Source of the DNA: Xenophilus aerolatus
Lineage (GTDB): Bacteria > Pseudomonadota > Gammaproteobacteria > Burkholderiales > Burkholderiaceae_C
Direction: 5' to 3'
NCBI GenBank assembly: GCA_029968055.1
Contig: JASCNX010000001.1
Location: 1,116,001 to 1,180,000, forward strand
Length of the DNA stretch: 64,000 bases
In this document: positions 21,006-27,947 of the stretch, piece after piece
Layout: every line of letters starts with the position of its first letter
How positions within the stretch are numbered: the stretch's first letter is position 1
Program-made: the position numbers and the translations under genes
Notes under the pieces: model-generated
Databases searched by the model: none
What the model was told of the DNA's origin: nothing
Seen by the model: the letters and a program-made list of their open reading frames with translations, nothing else

Positions 21006-21494
21006 ATGCCTTCCGCCCATGCCGACACCGACCCGCTCGCCACCCCTGCCCTGGCCTGGTTCGCGGACGTGGCCGTCGACGTGGGTGAACCGCTGGTGCT
21101 GGGCCAAGGCCCCGGTGGCCTGCGCCGGGTGGTGCCCATCGTCGGCGGCAGCGCCCACGGCGAAGGCTGGCGCGCGCGCGTGCTGCCCGGGGGAGCGGAC
21201 TTCCAGCGCATCACCAGCGACACCGCCTCGGAGCTCGACGCGCGCTACGGCCTCGAGACCGACGCCGGCGATCGCATCTACGTCCAGAACCGCGCCGTGC
21301 GCACCGCGCCGGCCGAGGTCATGGCCAAGCTGCTGCGCGGCGAGCCGGTTGAGCCGGCACAGATCTACTTCCGCTGCAGCCCGAGTTTCGAGACCAGCTC
21401 GCCCGCGCTTCGGTGGATCACCGAGCGCCTGTTCGTCGGCGTGGGGGTCCGCCACCCGGCGCAGGTGGTGATGCGCTTCTTCACCGTGCTGTAG
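21006..21494 (+). CDS. DUF3237-family protein
   Basis: A 162-residue protein of the DUF3237 family (small beta-barrel-like, function unknown). Landmarks are GPGGLRRVVPIVGGSAHGEGW, VLPGGADFQ and the end ERLFVGVGVRHPAQVVMRFFTVL. Members often sit in catabolic clusters near Bug proteins, and here a Bug gene follows 43 bp downstream on the same strand, so they are probably co-transcribed. The ATG at 21006 is used; a GTG at 20946 is in frame but would add an unrelated segment overlapping the divergent promoter. Confidence 0.85.
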   Translation: MPSAHADTDPLATPALAWFADVAVDVGEPLVLGQGPGGLRRVVPIVGGSAHGEGWRARVLPGGADFQRITSDTASELDARYGLETDAGDRIYVQNRAVRTAPAEVMAKLLRGEPVEPAQIYFRCSPSFETSSPALRWITERLFVGVGVRHPAQVVMRFFTVL

Positions 21495-21537
21495 CGCCCG
21501 GTACCCTTTTTTTTCCAGCCCCCAAGAGGAGACAACC

Positions 21538-22554
21538 ATGACGAACGCCCCCACGACGGGCGCGCGCCGCCGCGCGCTCACGCTCATCGCCAGCGCCACG
21601 CTGAGCCTGGCCGGCGCCCTGGCCGCGTCGCAGGCCACGGCGCAGAACGCGCCCTACCCCAACCGGCCCGTGCGCATCATCGTCGGCTTCCCGGCCGGCA
21701 CGGGGCCCGACATCGTCGCCCGCCTGCTGGCGCAGAAGCTGTCCGAAGGCTGGGGCAACCTGGGTGTGATCGTCGACAACAAGCCCGGTGCCGGCGGCCT
21801 CATCGCCGCCAACGAAACCGTGCGGGCGCAGCCCGACGGCTACACCCTCATGCTCGGCGAAACCGGCCAGCTCGCCATCGCGCCCAGCAGCTACGGCAAG
21901 CTGCCCTACGACCCCAAGAAGGACTTCGTGCCCGTCAGCCAAGTCGTCACCAGCAACTTCATGCTGGTGGTCAACCCGGCCAAGGTGCCGGCCAGGAACG
22001 TCAAGGAGTTCGTCGACTGGACGAAGCAGCAGAAGGGCCTGTTCATGGGCACCTTCGGCGCCGGCACGCCCGGCCATTTCGGCGCCTACCTGTTCGGCGA
22101 CGCCATCGGCCTCAAGCCCGAACCTGTGCACTACAAGAACACCGGCGACGCGCTGGCCGGCCTCATGAGCGGCGACGTCTCGGGCGCCTTCGCCAGCGTG
22201 GGCCTGGCCACGCCGAACGTGAAGGCCGGCAAGCTGGTCGCCCTCGCCTCCAGCGGCGAAGCCCGCAGCGCCGGCCTTCCCGACGTGCCCACCTTCCGCG
22301 AGCACGGCTACCCGCAGCTGGTCTTCAACTCCTGGTTCGGCATCGTCGCGCCCGCCAAGACGCCCCCGGACATCGTCGCCAGGCTCGAGGCCGACATCCG
22401 CAAGGCCATGCAGTCGGCCGACGGCAAGGCCAGGATGGAAGACGCCGGCTTCGGGGTGACGGGCACCACCGCGCAGGAGTTCGCCCGCATCATCGACAGC
22501 GACACGGTGACCTGGGGCAAGGCGGTGAGGGCGACGGGCTTCAAGGCGGACTGA
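21538..22554 (+). CDS. Bug-family tripartite tricarboxylate transporter binding protein
   Basis: A 338-residue Bug/TctC-type periplasmic binding protein. It has a Sec signal of about 35 residues (SATLSLAGALAASQATAQ) and the mature start YPNRPVRIIVGFPAGTGPD. The conserved DNKPGAGG and PDGYTLMLG segments bind the carboxylate ligand in known members. An AAGAGGAGA ribosome site precedes the ATG. It converges on the six-gene operon 22595-26940, which makes it a plausible uptake partner for that pathway's substrate, although no TctAB genes are present. The ligand is unknown. Confidence 0.9.
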   Translation: MTNAPTTGARRRALTLIASATLSLAGALAASQATAQNAPYPNRPVRIIVGFPAGTGPDIVARLLAQKLSEGWGNLGVIVDNKPGAGGLIAANETVRAQPDGYTLMLGETGQLAIAPSSYGKLPYDPKKDFVPVSQVVTSNFMLVVNPAKVPARNVKEFVDWTKQQKGLFMGTFGAGTPGHFGAYLFGDAIGLKPEPVHYKNTGDALAGLMSGDVSGAFASVGLATPNVKAGKLVALASSGEARSAGLPDVPTFREHGYPQLVFNSWFGIVAPAKTPPDIVARLEADIRKAMQSADGKARMEDAGFGVTGTTAQEFARIIDSDTVTWGKAVRATGFKAD

Positions 22555-22594: not shown

Positions 22595-23083
22595 TCACAC
22601 CCCGGCAGCGCTCAGCCGCAGCACCGCGGCCCGCAGCGCCAGCTCGTAACTGTCTACCCCGAAGCCGCAGATCTGCCCCGTCACGATGTCCGCGAACACG
22701 GAGTGGTGCCTGAAGGCCTCCCGCGCATGGATGTTGGACATGTGCAGCTCGACCACCGGGCAGGTCAGGATGGCCAGCGCATCGCGGATGCCGTAGCTGT
22801 AGTGCGTCCAGGCGCCGGCGTTGATGAGCACCGCGTCCTGCCGGTCCTCGAAGCCCTGGTGGATGCGCTCGCACATCTGCGCTTCGCTGTTGGTCTGGTA
22901 CGAATCGACCTCGACGCCGAGTTCCCGCGCCAGCCGCTGCAAGCGCGCGTCGATGTCCGCCAGCGTGACGGTGCCGTACTGCACCGGGTCGCGCTTGCCG
23001 AACATGTTGTGGTTGATGCCGTGCAGCATCAGCACCTTCTTTCGGGGCTGCCCGGTGGCGACGGACGACGCGGCGGTGCTCAT
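22595..23083 (-). CDS. Type II 3-dehydroquinate dehydratase-like protein (divergent AroQ)
   Basis: A 162-residue protein of the type II dehydroquinase fold. The N-terminal active-site loop is LHGINHNMFGKRDPVQYG, where ordinary AroQ has NGPNLNLLGxREPxxYG, so Asn, Arg and Tyr are kept but the loop is altered. The second motif is NAGAWTHYSYGIRDAL instead of NPGAYTHTS. The third, ELHMSNIHAREAFRHHS, keeps the catalytic His. These changes suggest a catabolic or altered-substrate paralogue rather than the biosynthetic enzyme. It is the last gene of the operon and overlaps the AroE-like gene by ATGA. Confidence 0.85.
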   Translation of the reverse strand: MSTAASSVATGQPRKKVLMLHGINHNMFGKRDPVQYGTVTLADIDARLQRLARELGVEVDSYQTNSEAQMCERIHQGFEDRQDAVLINAGAWTHYSYGIRDALAILTCPVVELHMSNIHAREAFRHHSVFADIVTGQICGFGVDSYELALRAAVLRLSAAGV

Positions 23084-23916
23084 CGGAGTGGGACCGTCAG
23101 TTGTTCGATCACGGCGCGGGTCTGCGGACGCACGCCGCGCCACCATTCGAAGGCCTCGGCCGCCTGCTCGACCAGCATGCCCACGCCGTCGGCCAGTTGG
23201 CGCACGCCGGCGTCGCGGGCCAGTTGCAGGAAGGGCGTCAGGCCCTTGCCATAGGCCAGCTCGTAAGCCAGTCCATCCGCCTGGAAGACGGTCGCGGGCA
23301 CGGGCGGCAAGGCGCCCGTGAGGCTGGCCGAGGTGGCGTTCACCACCAGGTCGAAGGCACCTTCCGCCGCAAGGTCGGTGTAGCTGCAGGCACGCACTGC
23401 CCTGCCCTTTTCCTCGACCTGCCCGGCCAGGGCCTCGGCCTTCGCGACGCTGCGGTTGGCAATCACCAGTTCCTCGGGGCCCGCTTCCACGAAGGGCAAC
23501 AGTGCACCACGCGCCGCGCCGCCGGCGCCCAGCAGCAGCACACGGCGCCCCGCCAGCGGCCGGTTCAGGTTCACGGCGATGTCGCGCAGCAGGCCGATGC
23601 CGTCGAAGCTCTCCGCCAGGATGCGGCCGTCCACGAATTTCAGGGCGTTCACTGCGCCCGCCATGCGGGCCCGCTCGCTCGACGCATCGGCCATCGCGAA
23701 GGCCCGCAGCTTGAAGGGGGCGGTGACGTTCAGGCCCTTGCCACCCTCGGCGATGAAGGACCGGACCACACCGGCGAACGCGCCCTCGGGCTCGAGCGGC
23801 CCCTCGATCGCGGTGTAGCGCAGGTCCTGCGCGGTCTGCTGCGCGAACTGCCCGTGGATGAGGGGCGACTTGGTGTGGCTGATCGGGTTGCCGATCACGG
23901 CATAGCTGTCGGTCAT
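23080..23916 (-). CDS. Shikimate dehydrogenase-like protein (AroE family)
   Basis: A 278-residue NAD(P)-dependent shikimate/quinate dehydrogenase family protein. NPISHTKSP at the start, the catalytic Lys in NVTAPFK and the nucleotide loop LLGAGGAARG are clear. The Asn in GAVNAL and the Asp of FDGIG match substrate residues, but the usual NTDG is replaced by SFDG and VNTL by VNAL. The Gln of VEQAAEAF is kept. It is coupled to the AroQ-like gene by an ATGA overlap and follows the CoA-transferase by 9 bp. The operon context favours a catabolic quinate/shikimate-type or related substrate over aromatic biosynthesis. Confidence 0.88.
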   Translation of the reverse strand: MTDSYAVIGNPISHTKSPLIHGQFAQQTAQDLRYTAIEGPLEPEGAFAGVVRSFIAEGGKGLNVTAPFKLRAFAMADASSERARMAGAVNALKFVDGRILAESFDGIGLLRDIAVNLNRPLAGRRVLLLGAGGAARGALLPFVEAGPEELVIANRSVAKAEALAGQVEEKGRAVRACSYTDLAAEGAFDLVVNATSASLTGALPPVPATVFQADGLAYELAYGKGLTPFLQLARDAGVRQLADGVGMLVEQAAEAFEWWRGVRPQTRAVIEQLTVPLR

Positions 23917-23925
23917 CGGAGGTCC

Positions 23926-25140
23926 TCAGCGGGAAAAGAGCACGCCATCGGTCTGCATGGCATCGATCTCGGCGGGCGAGAAGCCCAGGGCCTGCGCCAC
24001 CGGGGCGTTGTGCTGGCCCAGGTCGGGGGCCACCTGATGGATGGTGGTGTCGCAGTCGGAAAAGCGGAAAGGCAGGTTCGGCAGGCGCAGCGTGCCCAGG
24101 CGCGGATGCTGCTGTTCCACCACCATGCCGCGGGCCTGGATCTGCGGATCGGCCATCACTTCGTCGATGCGCTGCACCTTGGCGCTGGGCACGTCGATGC
24201 CGTCCAGCAGGCGCAGCACTTCGGCCACCGGCCGCGCCGCCACCCAGGGCTTGACCACGGCCAGGATGGCTTCGCGATGCGCGTTGCGGCCGCCGCTGTC
24301 GTGCAAGCGCGGGTCGCTGCCGAAGCCCGCCGGACCGCCCTGCTGCTCGACCAGCGCGGCAAAGCGCTTCCAGGCATCGTCCACCTGTGCGGCAATCACC
24401 AGGTCGCCATCGGCCGCCCGGAACACGCCGTAGAGCGTGGAGGTGGGCATGTCGTGCCCCGTCTGCGCCGGCAGCACGCCGCCCAGCGTGAAGCACTGCA
24501 CCGCATACTCGTGCATCGACACCAGCGTGTCGTACAGCGCCATGTCGATGTGCTGGCCCTTGCCGCTTTTCACCCGGCCCAGCAGCGCGGCGTTGATGGC
24601 CGCGACGGCATGGATGCCGGTGTACATGTCGCCCAGCGAGATGCGCAGCAACGGCGGCGCCTCGCCCGGCGTGCCCACCATCTGCATGATCCCGCTCTTG
24701 GCTTCGGCAATGAGGCCGAAGCCTGCGCGGTGCGCATCGGGACCGGTGTGGCCATAGGCCGAGATGGAGCAATACACGAGGCCCGGGTTGCGTGCCGACA
24801 GCTCGGCATAGCCCAGCCCGAGCCGGTCCAGTGCACCGGGTCGGTAGTTTTCGATGAACACGTCGGCCGAGTCGCACAGGCGCTGCATGAAGTCCTTGCC
24901 GCGCGGGTCCTTCATGTTCACGCTGACGCCCTGTTTGCCCATGTTGAGCTGCAGGAAGTAGCCGCTCTGCTGGTCGTCGAGCACGGTGGCGTGCTGCCGG
25001 CCGGCGTCGCCGCTGCCCGGCCGTTCGACCTTGATCACCTCCGCGCCCAGCGCCGCCAGGCAGCGGCCCACATAGGGCCCGGCCAGGAAGTGGCTGTAGT
25101 CGACGACGCGGATGCCTTCGAGGGGGCGCGCCTGCATCAT
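23926..25140 (-). CDS. CaiB/BaiF-family CoA-transferase
   Basis: A 404-residue type III CoA-transferase, which moves CoA between carboxylic acids. The start LEGIRVVDYSHFLAGPYVGR, the VERPGSGD loop, and the ENYRPGALDRLGLGY segment are family hallmarks. The catalytic Asp is expected in ISLGDMYTG near residue 173. Its ATG overlaps the MaoC stop (ATGA), and pairing of CaiB with MaoC is typical of modules that activate and hydrate unsaturated dicarboxylates such as itaconate or mesaconate. The acid used here is not known. Confidence 0.9.
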   Translation of the reverse strand: MMQARPLEGIRVVDYSHFLAGPYVGRCLAALGAEVIKVERPGSGDAGRQHATVLDDQQSGYFLQLNMGKQGVSVNMKDPRGKDFMQRLCDSADVFIENYRPGALDRLGLGYAELSARNPGLVYCSISAYGHTGPDAHRAGFGLIAEAKSGIMQMVGTPGEAPPLLRISLGDMYTGIHAVAAINAALLGRVKSGKGQHIDMALYDTLVSMHEYAVQCFTLGGVLPAQTGHDMPTSTLYGVFRAADGDLVIAAQVDDAWKRFAALVEQQGGPAGFGSDPRLHDSGGRNAHREAILAVVKPWVAARPVAEVLRLLDGIDVPSAKVQRIDEVMADPQIQARGMVVEQQHPRLGTLRLPNLPFRFSDCDTTIHQVAPDLGQHNAPVAQALGFSPAEIDAMQTDGVLFSR

Positions 25141-25595
25141 TGCGCTCCCGGGCGACGCGGCACCATGAGTCGGTGCTCGCCACGCTGCACGACCTGGCCC
25201 TGCTGGTTGATCAGCTCCGACGGCAGCACCACGATGCCCCAGCCCGGCTTGCTCTTGCTGGCACGCATGCTGCCGACGCGGAACTTCACGTGCAGCACGT
25301 CGTCGACCTTGATCGGCAGCAGGAAGTCCCACGTCCAGCCCAGGGACATGCCGGGCAGGAAACGGTAGTCGCTCTGCGTCTTCAGCCCATCGGCGATCGA
25401 CAGGCCGAACAGGCCGTGCGCGACGATCGAGCCGAAGTGGCTGGCGTTGGCATAGGCCTCGTCCACGTGCACCGGCGTGTGGTCGCCGGTGAGGTCGGCG
25501 TACGCCAGGATGCGCTGCCTGGTGACGGTGTAGCTCGGGCTGACGCACTCGTCGCCTTCGCGGGCGTCGTCCCAGTATCTTTCGGTGGTGCTCAT
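25137..25595 (-). CDS. MaoC-like enoyl-CoA hydratase
   Basis: A 152-residue hot-dog-fold protein with the hydratase-2 catalytic motif: Asp and His in ADLTGDHTPVHVDEAYA, followed by FGSIVAHGLFGLS. These residues add water across enoyl-CoA double bonds in characterised MaoC proteins. The ATG at 25595 gives the normal single-domain length. It lies 2 bp after the VOC gene and overlaps the CoA-transferase by four bases, so the three are probably translated as a unit. Confidence 0.9.
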   Translation of the reverse strand: MSTTERYWDDAREGDECVSPSYTVTRQRILAYADLTGDHTPVHVDEAYANASHFGSIVAHGLFGLSIADGLKTQSDYRFLPGMSLGWTWDFLLPIKVDDVLHVKFRVGSMRASKSKPGWGIVVLPSELINQQGQVVQRGEHRLMVPRRPGAQ

Positions 25596-25597
25596 GG

Positions 25598-25993
25598 TCA
25601 GGCCTCTGCGCGCGGGTCGATGGAAAGGGCCTGTGCGACGCACGCAGCCGGCCGGGCCTGGATGAATTCGATCGCGAGCCCGTCGGGCAGGCGCAGCCAG
25701 TTGCTGCCCTGCGGCATCTCGGTCACGCCGAAGGCGCGGGCCGCGGCGAGCGCTGCCTCCTGGTCCTCGCACATCACGCCCAGGTGGGCCAGGCGGCCTT
25801 CGGGCGCCTGATGGTCCGGGTCGTGGATGAACTGCAGGCCGCCCAGCGTCCAGTACTGGCGTGGCGCCTCGGCGGGCCCGTCGACTTCCCGCATGCCCAT
25901 GCCGAACACCTGCCGGAAGAAGTCGATGTGCCAGTGGATGTCCTTGACCCAGATGGCAACGTGCTCCAGGTAGGCTTTCTTGGGATGGATCAT
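25598..25993 (-). CDS. VOC-family (glyoxalase-like) protein
   Basis: A 131-residue vicinal oxygen chelate protein. The expected metal ligands are visible: His in YLEHVAIWVKD, His in LAHLGVMCED, and Glu in GLAIEFIQ. The fold covers lyases, isomerases, epimerases and dioxygenases, so the exact reaction is open; in a CoA pathway an acyl-CoA epimerase-like role is one option. It overlaps the PanE-like gene by ATGA and precedes MaoC by 2 bp. Confidence 0.85.
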   Translation of the reverse strand: MIHPKKAYLEHVAIWVKDIHWHIDFFRQVFGMGMREVDGPAEAPRQYWTLGGLQFIHDPDHQAPEGRLAHLGVMCEDQEAALAAARAFGVTEMPQGSNWLRLPDGLAIEFIQARPAACVAQALSIDPRAEA

Positions 25994-26940
25994 GCAGGGG
26001 TCTCCTTGGTTGTCTTGTCGGTCATGGCTCGCTCGATGCCCTTGATGCAGGCCACCAGCGTGGCGTTGACCGGCGTGGGCACGCCGTGGCGCCGGCCCCA
26101 GCGCACGACCGAGCCGTTGATGAAGTCGACCTCGGTCACCGAGCCTTTTTCCAGGCTCTGCAGCATCGAGGTCTTGAAGGCCGGAGGCAGGCCTGCGGAC
26201 GCCAGGGCCCACGCCTGCTCGGGCTCGGTCATCGAGAGCCGCACGCCGGCCGCCCGCGCGGCATCCATGGCCTCCTGCACCGCGGCCAGGGCCGTGGCCT
26301 TGAGCAGCGGCTCGTCGTAGAGCTGGCCGTAGGTGAGCCGGGTGATGCCGGTGATGGCGCCGGTGGCCACGTTCACCAGCAGCTTGTCCCACATGGTGCC
26401 GAGGATGTTGTCGCTGACGACGGTGTGCAGGCCCGCGGCCTCGAAGGCGGCGGCGATCGCCTCCACGCGCGCGGTCCGCCGGCCGTCCAGCTCGCCGATG
26501 TAGGTCGCCTTGCCCGCGACGCCCGACTGGATGTGGCCCGGCCCGCGCATCACTCCGCCGACGTAGGTTTTTCCGGCCAGCAGGCGCTCGCGCCCCACGA
26601 TGTCGGCCAGCAGGTCTTCGTGCCCCAAGCCGTTCTGAAGAGACAGGACCACCGTCTGCGGTCCCACCAGGCTCAGCGCACCGCGCATGGCGGCGTCGGT
26701 GTGGAAGGACTTGACCAGCACGACCACCAGGTCCACCACGCCGGAGTCTGCGGCCGTCGTGGATGCCTTCACCGCCACGCGGCGCGTGCCGGCGGCATCA
26801 TCCACGCGCAGGCCGGCGCGCTGCATGGCCTCGACATGGACGGCGGAGCGGTTGATCAACCAGGTTTCGTGGCCCGCCTCGGTCAGCGCGGCGCCGATGG
26901 CACAGCCGAGTGCGCCCGCACCCAGGATCGCAATCTTCAC
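25990..26940 (-). CDS. Ketopantoate reductase-like dehydrogenase (PanE/ApbA family)
   Basis: A 316-residue protein of the 2-dehydropantoate 2-reductase family. The NADP loop ILGAGALGCAIG is at the N-terminus, QNGLGHED in the middle, and the catalytic Lys and Asn are in MWDKLLVNVATGAIT. I chose the GTG at 26940 because AGGAGACATT lies directly upstream; a start further back has none. As first gene of a catabolic operon next to a LysR regulator it more likely oxidises or reduces a pathway intermediate than makes pantothenate. Confidence 0.88.
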   Translation of the reverse strand: MKIAILGAGALGCAIGAALTEAGHETWLINRSAVHVEAMQRAGLRVDDAAGTRRVAVKASTTAADSGVVDLVVVLVKSFHTDAAMRGALSLVGPQTVVLSLQNGLGHEDLLADIVGRERLLAGKTYVGGVMRGPGHIQSGVAGKATYIGELDGRRTARVEAIAAAFEAAGLHTVVSDNILGTMWDKLLVNVATGAITGITRLTYGQLYDEPLLKATALAAVQEAMDAARAAGVRLSMTEPEQAWALASAGLPPAFKTSMLQSLEKGSVTEVDFINGSVVRWGRRHGVPTPVNATLVACIKGIERAMTDKTTKETPA

Positions 26941-26992
26941 AATGTCTCCTTCAGGAGCCGTGACGATAGGCAGCGCCACCCCGGCCCGCAAT

Positions 26993-27027
26993 GCAATGAT
27001 TGCAATAGCTTCATTGCCTGGTGCAAT
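26993..27027. promoter_or_regulatory. Candidate LysR operator between the operon and its regulator
   Basis: Within the 95-bp divergent region, two dyads sit side by side: GCAATGATTGC at 26993-27003 and ATTGCCTGGTGCAAT at 27013-27027. The second fits the LysR T-N11-A box, and further GCAAT/ATTGC half-sites overlap. The spacing places them next to the LysR start and about 50 bases before the PanE-like start, as in typical recognition and activation sites. Confidence 0.6.
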
Positions 27028-27035
27028 ATCGGCGC

Positions 27036-27947
27036 ATGGGCACCCTCGACCTCCCCGAGCTCAAGCTGCTGCAGCTCTTCGACCTGCTCTACGCCGCGCG
27101 CAGCGTCACGCGCGTGGCCGAGCAGCTGGGGCAGAGCCAGCCGACGGTCAGCATCTGGCTCAACCGCCTGCGCGCGCACCTGAAGGACCCGCTGTTCGTC
27201 CGCACGCCGGGCGGCATGGCGCCCACCCCGCAGGCCGACGCACTCATCGGCCCCTGCCGCGACGTGCTGGAGTCGGTGCGCCGGCTGAGCTCATGGGAGC
27301 CCGACTTCAACCCGGCGACCGCCCGCCGGCGCTTTCGCATCTGCATGACCGACGCCAGCCATGTGGCCCTGCTGCCCCGCCTGCTGGCGAACGTGCGCGC
27401 CCAGGCGCCGGGCGTGCGCCTGGAGGCGGCCCGCATCGACGGGAACACCGAACGGGCGCTGGAGTCGGGTGAGGCGGACCTGGCCATCGGCTACGTGCCA
27501 TGGCTGGGCAACGGCGTGTACCAGCAGCAGCTCTACGAACAGGACTGGGTCTGCCTGGCCAACGCGCACCATCCCCGGCTGCGGGGCCGGCTGGGCATCC
27601 GGCAGTACCGGGCCGAGGGCCACATCACCATCGCGGCAGGGACCGGCGCGCAGTTGCTGGAGCAGGCGCTGGCGCGCGCGCGCATCGAGCGCGACGTGGT
27701 GCTGGAACTGCCGGGTTTTCTCGGCCTGGGCGCGATCATCCGCAGCACCGACCTGGTTGCCACGCTGCCGCGCCACATCGGGGAGACCCTGGCGCAGGCC
27801 AACGGCCTGTCGGTGTTCCGCTGCCCCGTGGCGGTCGAGGGCTTCGCGGTACGGCAGCACTGGCATGCCCGCTACCACCAGGACGCGGCCAATCGGTGGC
27901 TGAGGACGACCGTGATGGCGCTGTTCGGCTCGGGCGCCGCGGGTTAG
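27036..27947 (+). CDS. LysR-family transcriptional regulator of the adjacent operon
   Basis: A 303-residue LysR-type regulator. The HTH segment is FDLLYAARSVTRVAEQLGQS followed by QPTVSIWLNRLRAHLKDPLF, then the effector domain. The ATG at 27036 is preferred over a GTG at 27021 that overlaps the proposed operator. Its divergent position next to the PanE-like gene and the GCAAT dyads between them make it the probable activator or repressor of the six-gene operon. The inducer is unknown. Confidence 0.9.
   Translation: MGTLDLPELKLLQLFDLLYAARSVTRVAEQLGQSQPTVSIWLNRLRAHLKDPLFVRTPGGMAPTPQADALIGPCRDVLESVRRLSSWEPDFNPATARRRFRICMTDASHVALLPRLLANVRAQAPGVRLEAARIDGNTERALESGEADLAIGYVPWLGNGVYQQQLYEQDWVCLANAHHPRLRGRLGIRQYRAEGHITIAAGTGAQLLEQALARARIERDVVLELPGFLGLGAIIRSTDLVATLPRHIGETLAQANGLSVFRCPVAVEGFAVRQHWHARYHQDAANRWLRTTVMALFGSGAAG

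Follow-up and report, generated by a model that had tools for sequence, protein, structure and literature searches.

Plants are rich in quinate and shikimate, and the textbook bacterial route for the use of these acids is aromatisation to protocatechuate, after which ring cleavage usually needs oxygen. Modules made of a CaiB-type CoA-transferase and a hydratase serve the use of carnitine and of itaconate/mesaconate, and the cyclohexanecarboxyl-CoA/benzoyl-CoA pathway opens its ring in a beta-oxidation-like manner. Propionivibrio limicola and Ilyobacter insuetus ferment hydroaromatic compounds, and we know of no pathway genes for this ability. Work cited in PMC4930944, PMC11881992 and PMC3035301 describes these two bacteria as specialised in degrading such compounds. 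QuiC1 and QsuB belong to the quinate/shikimate-to-protocatechuate pathway (PMC7442255). Here, we describe a six-gene block from Xenophilus aerolatus, located in a stretch of 64,000 nucleotides (assembly GCA_029968055.1, contig JASCNX010000001.1, positions 1,116,001 to 1,180,000; hereafter the window), which appears to encode an undescribed route handling plant ring acids such as quinate and shikimate as CoA esters. Literature searches covering the top-ranked open-access papers gave no description of this gene block.

A first-pass annotation of the window had claimed a six-gene, one-strand operon with short overlaps or gaps of at most 9 bp, and the coordinates of the open reading frames (ORFs) bear this out. 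Transcription would lead from a ketopantoate-reductase-family dehydrogenase (KPR) through a VOC protein, a MaoC-type hydratase, a CaiB-type CoA-transferase and an AroE-type shikimate dehydrogenase to AroQ, a type II 3-dehydroquinate dehydratase. The six ORFs form one run on the minus strand (22595-26940), with 4-bp overlaps at KPR/VOC, MaoC/CaiB and AroE/AroQ, 2 bp between VOC and MaoC, and 9 bp between CaiB and AroE. With the protocatechuate pathway, the block has the AroE-type and AroQ-type steps and the genome context in common; however, none of its six genes encodes a dehydroshikimate dehydratase (DSD), and it adds a CoA-transferase, a hydratase, KPR and VOC that are not used there. The carnitine and itaconate/mesaconate modules follow a similar logic of CoA transfer and hydration, yet the block CaiB scores far below their cut-offs and the partner genes differ. 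Activation, hydration, oxidation and ring opening, as in the cyclohexanecarboxyl-CoA/benzoyl-CoA route, is also the logic that we propose for the block, although the conserved block contains no crotonase-type ring hydrolase and a hydroxylated ring would be expected.

Conservation in related genomes was the point on which the first-pass annotation had staked its proposal, and the gene order was indeed found again in many genera, implying that the block is not a product of chance. All six genes occurred together in 34 of 97 fetched loci under a strict filter, which five further loci holding all six genes failed (L020, L027, L040, L091 and L093; locus and genome numbers, L and G, are our own). 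The usual arrangement in full loci was KPR-VOC-MaoC-CaiB-AroE-AroQ adjoining the same LysR family, and Alphaproteobacteria and plasmids likewise carry this order. At distances of up to 9.5 kb from the block VOC, we counted KPR in 58, CaiB in 57, MaoC in 57, AroE in 53, AroQ in 51 and LysR relatives in 45 of 61 loci including the window (80 loci with a VOC match minus 19 of 6 kb or less), while the next commonest neighbour, a Gfo/Idh dehydrogenase, was present in nine. The underlying clustering at 45% identity grouped VOC itself in only 59 of the 61 loci, and omits the diverged MaoC and the family I transferase of Bacillota. Across 32 loci, pairwise distances of KPR, VOC, MaoC, CaiB and AroE co-varied (rho 0.76-0.87), in contrast to those of AroQ against the other five genes (rho 0.36-0.46), from which we conclude that a five-gene core is co-inherited and AroQ attached. 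AroQ is the looser, exchangeable part of the operon. The window AroQ belongs to a distinct subfamily, as indicated by the 60 plasmid matches listed among 435, of which 34 (Burkholderiales, Bacillota) are 61-86% identical and the others below 50%. When named genomes were scanned with it, 586 relatives were confirmed, of which the best 80 were 74-88% identical.

The link of the block to quinate/shikimate catabolism is well supported. Of 55 proteobacterial genomes with the block, 53 encode a DSD domain (35/37, with G032 and G037 lacking a match, plus 18/18), as opposed to 14 of 198 in the sample of the order after removal of two block carriers (16/200 before); the Fisher tests treat related genomes as independent. 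Block genomes were scored with a 640-aa QuiC, counting only matches over the first 275 residues (all E below 1e-20), and the order background with the 275-aa part of QuiC as query. Most block genomes had been recruited through the AroQ subfamily, making the set recruited by VOC alone (G489, G716, G783, G827, G1159, G936 and G1362; the last three drawn from samples other than the background order) the cleaner one, and here DSD was present in all seven. No QuiC-type match was obtained in Anaerosolibacter, which carries a variant block, nor in Lucifera, which has AroQ and no VOC match.

The AroQ subfamily was found also beside quinate/shikimate genes: within 8 kb of AroQ, the AroQ-recruited loci contained AroE2 in 28, Gfo/Idh in 22, fused QuiC in 6 and split halves in 6-7 cases. 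Around the block VOC, only a minority of loci showed such neighbours, AroE2 being present within 9.5 kb in 12 of 61 loci (clusters of 7 and 5) and QuiC in 2; L091 and L115 have QuiC genes near their blocks, and L116 has a split DSD pair. Physical linkage is thus the weaker signal, and co-occurrence at the level of whole genomes the stronger one. Among 35 genomes searched for holding the AroQ subfamily, 13 contained the block VOC; after removal of two known block genomes, this left 11 of 33 versus 5 of 399 in the order sample, a count that includes the window genome. For G1196 and G1223, which are among these 11, the block belongs to the same cluster, just past the first stretch. In the window genome, DSD is encoded in a separate cluster (C1:112764). 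This ordinary shikimate/quinate cluster (L102, C1 ~110500-118200) comprises genes for an IclR-like regulator, AroE2, QuiC, an MFS transporter, a second AroE2 and a TRAP binding protein. As a side observation, a Gfo/Idh/MocA dehydrogenase (L025:6949-8001 and relatives) is often encoded directly beside AroQ; quinate or shikimate may be its substrate, which would make it a dehydrogenase so far overlooked in this role.

With respect to the individual enzymes, families were assigned by Pfam/NCBIfam and residues compared by alignment; the roles given for catalytic residues are presumptive. AroE (335.2 bits; NF001310 cut-off 221) and AroQ (175.9 bits; TIGR01088 cut-off 169.85) are, by family scores and residues, a predicted shikimate dehydrogenase and dehydroquinate dehydratase, respectively. 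AroQ keeps the catalytic positions of the type II enzymes and has a close solved relative (6cv6). Of the positions compared with E. coli AroE, the window protein differs only by T101F and S14T: in 11 of 12 aligned sequences, Phe104 replaces E. coli Thr101 (the exception, L070, is not a block locus), eight further positions are invariant, and S14 is S or T. KPR scored 237.6 bits against the cut-off of 141.35 of the broad TIGR00745 and retains E. coli PanE K176, E256, S244, N98 and N180. With regard to the PanE-like label of the first-pass annotation, N184 and N194, which we take to be substrate-contact residues in E. coli PanE, are replaced by G and Y in each of the 16 members aligned, so that KPR, as far as its residues tell, is not a typical PanE.

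VOC had no NCBIfam match at E 0.001, and a profile search of the PDB returned weak matches with glyoxalase I first; His11, Gln54, His70 and Glu109 are invariant in 16 of 16 sequences, an H-Q-H-E set that presumably corresponds to the metal ligands of methylmalonyl-CoA epimerase. Neither CaiB nor MaoC passes any NCBIfam cut-off. Among the solved relatives of MaoC are PaaZ, dehydratases of the MaoC-like type and (R)-specific enoyl-CoA hydratases, and those closest to CaiB are 4ed9 (CaiB/BaiF family) followed by 9br7, a succinate--hydroxymethylglutarate CoA-transferase. CaiB stayed below the curated cut-offs for glutarate (262.6 vs 750 bits), mesaconate (244.4 vs 700), formyl-CoA (oxalate; 234.1 vs 504.2) and carnitine (140.7 vs 413). 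The first-pass annotation had compared the CaiB/MaoC pair to itaconate use, which found no support: these scores far below the respective equivalogs, together with the quinate/shikimate context, led us to discard itaconate/mesaconate as substrates.

Variants of the block were found in Enterococcus raffinosus and Anaerosolibacter, in the order CoA-transferase-MaoC-KPR-VOC-AroQ and with no AroE in the fetched stretches. Their identity to the window proteins is 49.5-56% for KPR, 42-61% for VOC and 64-77% for AroQ, with a diverged MaoC (21-23%). CoA transfer is present again in these variants, by way of a non-homologous family I enzyme (L074, which is the Anaerosolibacter locus, and L097; PF01144, checked in L074). 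In G1362, the full block is adjoined by a transferase of family I that shares 64-70% identity with the E. raffinosus and Anaerosolibacter enzymes, indicating that family I and family III transferases can coexist. A conventional-type AroQ, 43-46% identical to the AroQ subfamily, occurs in L120, L125 and L115 and exceeds the curated cut-offs in L120, which supports ordinary dehydroquinate dehydratase activity as the role of AroQ.

We tentatively favour, at slightly below an even chance, the view that the block encodes a LysR-controlled, CoA-dependent branch of the catabolism of hydroaromatic acids of the quinate/shikimate group. This branch would probably be accessory and, with no aromatisation of the ring, use dehydroshikimate, shikimate or dehydroquinate. 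AroQ and the AroE-type enzymes would interconvert dehydroquinate, dehydroshikimate and shikimate; CaiB would transfer CoA from an acyl-CoA donor onto the ring acid; MaoC would hydrate the ring double bond adjoining the thioester; KPR would oxidise (or reduce) the new hydroxyl; and VOC would epimerise or enolise the carbon adjoining the thioester. The ring might then open by a retro-Claisen or retro-aldol step, involving neither oxygen nor an aromatic intermediate. Breakdown of a carboxylic acid, perhaps cyclic, via CoA and dehydroquinate-like intermediates had already been suggested by the first-pass annotation, and genome context backs a role of this kind on a cyclic acid. Our data establish which genes make up the block, the families to which they belong, the retention of catalytic residues, joint inheritance and the tie to quinate/shikimate genes; the exact substrate and product, each reaction, the reaction order and the ring-opening enzyme are proposals.

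Several observations weigh against this view. The conserved block holds no obvious ring-opening enzyme, and a citryl-CoA lyase over cut-off was detected in just 6 of 56 block genomes, the window genome not being among them. Most of the 61 block loci have no AroE2 or DSD gene within 9.5 kb, and some blocks have no AroE (L139, L142) or AroQ (L122, L113) nearby. Moreover, nearly all proteobacterial carriers, window genome included, own a DSD and thus probably the ordinary protocatechuate route, so that the block is no simple replacement for it. The idea of a plain DSD substitute was accordingly weakened by the presence of both in 53 of 55 proteobacterial carriers.

As to carbon cleavage, a ring-opened quinate skeleton retains the C1 tertiary hydroxyl and carboxyl and would therefore be citryl-CoA-like; in an alternative form of the proposal, it would serve as substrate of lyases in a few hosts. 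In L146 (G1362), a citryl-CoA lyase (407 bits vs a cut-off of 261) directly follows AroQ, and a tannase/feruloyl-esterase-family gene (PF07519) and TRAP binding proteins surround the block. G1362 shares its family with G1208. The locus of the latter, L059 (titled Rhodocyclaceae), harbours a citryl-CoA lyase and a thiamine pyrophosphate (TPP) enzyme with AroQ; in L116, genes for the same two enzymes lie ~7 kb away from the block. Besides, proteins resembling hydroxymethylglutaryl-CoA (HMG-CoA) lyase and exceeding the cut-off are encoded near AroQ in L074 and L071. The citryl-CoA lyase frequency of 6/56 compares with 4/200 in the order sample (p 0.009, for two samples that were not matched), and made us reject citryl-CoA lyase as a core member and retain it as a lead. 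A broader version of the favoured view, namely oxygen-independent, non-aromatising degradation of quinate/shikimate in Proteobacteria and, with another CoA-transferase, in Bacillota, with lyases of the citryl-CoA or HMG-CoA type cleaving the acyl-CoA in some hosts, is doubtful, though a real possibility. TPP enzymes, amidohydrolases, crotonases, short-chain dehydrogenases/reductases and acyl-CoA dehydrogenases are neighbours in a few loci only. Among these, an amidohydrolase (PF04909) with distant similarity to 4-sulfomuconolactone hydrolase is repeatedly encoded near KPR or AroQ (L138:6944-7840, L056:9472-10314, L047:1825-2679) and could open a lactone.

The same DSD data that tie the block to quinate/shikimate catabolism keep us from a firm choice between the CoA-dependent branch and its main rival, as nearly all proteobacterial carriers possess this dehydratase too. 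According to this rival, which we consider unlikely, another hydroaromatic acid (e.g. deoxy, dihydro or epimeric) is funnelled through CoA esters into dehydroquinate or dehydroshikimate and then aromatised by DSD. The near-constant co-occurrence of DSD in Proteobacteria would suit such a funnel, the Phe in block AroE may mean a different substrate, and an acyl-CoA dehydrogenase is encoded in L037, where it adjoins the family I transferase, and in L114, where it is close to the block; however, the Anaerosolibacter variant occurs without a QuiC-type match, and G032 and G037 (the latter a metagenome bin, perhaps incomplete) have the block and no DSD-domain match. A carnitine-like reductive cycle, in which the ring acid would be activated, dehydrated and reduced as an electron sink and CoA passed on, appears very improbable. 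While CaiB, a hydratase and an NAD(P) enzyme in one block, as well as the variants in E. raffinosus and Anaerosolibacter, would suit it, DSD, present in nearly all proteobacterial carriers, points to oxidative use of quinate, the block has no other reductase as a constant neighbour, and the citryl-CoA/HMG-CoA lyase neighbours of a few loci suggest carbon cleavage.

Alternatively, one promoter might drive two functions, with AroE and AroQ supplying the ordinary quinate route and KPR-VOC-MaoC-CaiB degrading an unrelated acid. The weak correlation of AroQ distances with the rest, and those blocks that have no AroE or AroQ nearby, would fit such a split. It is nevertheless improbable: AroE co-varies with the other four genes (rho 0.79-0.87), VOC is enriched in AroQ-subfamily genomes whose fetched stretch contained no block (the 11 of 33 given above), and the genomes of L139 and L142 do hold the AroQ subfamily and DSD.

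The VOC marker is rare: apart from the five order genomes, it was detected in 4 of 398 genomes of the phylum (two of them also in the order sample), 2 of 199 in the family of G1208, and 2 of 391 in the class of Anaerosolibacter, namely Anaerosolibacter and another genome in which it is not part of a block. It was absent from all 11 members listed for the family to which the window genome belongs. Twenty-five plasmid records carry VOC relatives, some outside blocks, and a conjugative plasmid of Bradyrhizobium japonicum has the order LysR-KPR-VOC-MaoC-CaiB-AroE-AroE2-ABC transporter-AroQ-Gfo/Idh. This patchy occurrence and the plasmid carriage would fit gain and loss by transfer. In the VOC stretches of Martelella (L119) and Selenomonas (L121), no block was annotated. 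Separately, a VOC relative (48% identical) in L107 (11806-13354; genome G125, class of Anaerosolibacter) adjoins a transaldolase/FSA-family gene with no block, a neighbour suggesting that sugar-like ketones may be substrates of this VOC family in other settings, and the block VOC frame of L116 (G783:C24:27944-28279) has one in-frame stop codon.

As the first-pass annotation had stated, a divergent LysR gene, 95 bp away, and a convergent Bug gene flank the operon (Table 1). The former probably encodes the operon's regulator, judging from its family and from the relatives near the block VOC in 45 of 61 loci. Of 31 LysR-KPR intergenic regions, 18 including the window contain the promoter-like pattern (dinucleotide shuffles: mean 0.11, max 1) and 25 contain AWTG-N4-6-CATT (shuffles: mean 0.98, max 4), both patterns having been defined post hoc. 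The Bug protein is no regular partner of the block: apart from the window's own, no Bug relative of at least 40% identity was found beside the block in the loci put through the strict filter. Bug relatives of 30-42% identity occur inside some loci, L141 having two that adjoin its block; even so, the locus comparison ruled out the Bug protein as a regular part. Transporters of the TRAP, MFS, ABC and AEC types were repeatedly found near blocks. In the window, a 162-aa ORF precedes the Bug gene in the same direction (21006-22554 for both), and this pair seems independent of the operon.

Table 1. Features of the operon and its flanks in the window
Feature	Positions	Strand	Remarks
TctC/Bug binding protein, convergent	21538-22554	+	40 bp past AroQ end
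AroQ, type II 3-dehydroquinate dehydratase, distinct subfamily	22595-23083	-	162 aa; TIGR01088
AroE-type shikimate dehydrogenase	23080-23916	-	278 aa; NF001310
CaiB-type family III CoA-transferase	23926-25140	-	404 aa; PF02515
MaoC hot-dog (R)-hydratase/dehydratase	25137-25595	-	152 aa; PF01575
VOC protein	25598-25993	-	131 aa; PF13669
KPR, ketopantoate-reductase-family (ApbA/PanE) NAD(P) dehydrogenase	25990-26940	-	GTG start, 316 aa; PF02558/PF08546
Candidate sigma-70-like promoter, reads into operon	26963-26991	-	TTGCGG-N17-TATCGT
Candidate LysR operator	26995-27017	not assigned	AWTG/CATT inverted elements
LysR-type regulator, divergent	27036-27947	+	PF00126+PF03466

If the proposed CoA-dependent branch holds true, the same genomes would possess a second, CoA-based route for quinate and shikimate, and the block would provide candidate genes for the fermentative degradation of hydroaromatic compounds. 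It would likewise call for caution against the automatic annotation of block genes as housekeeping aroE, aroQ and panE.

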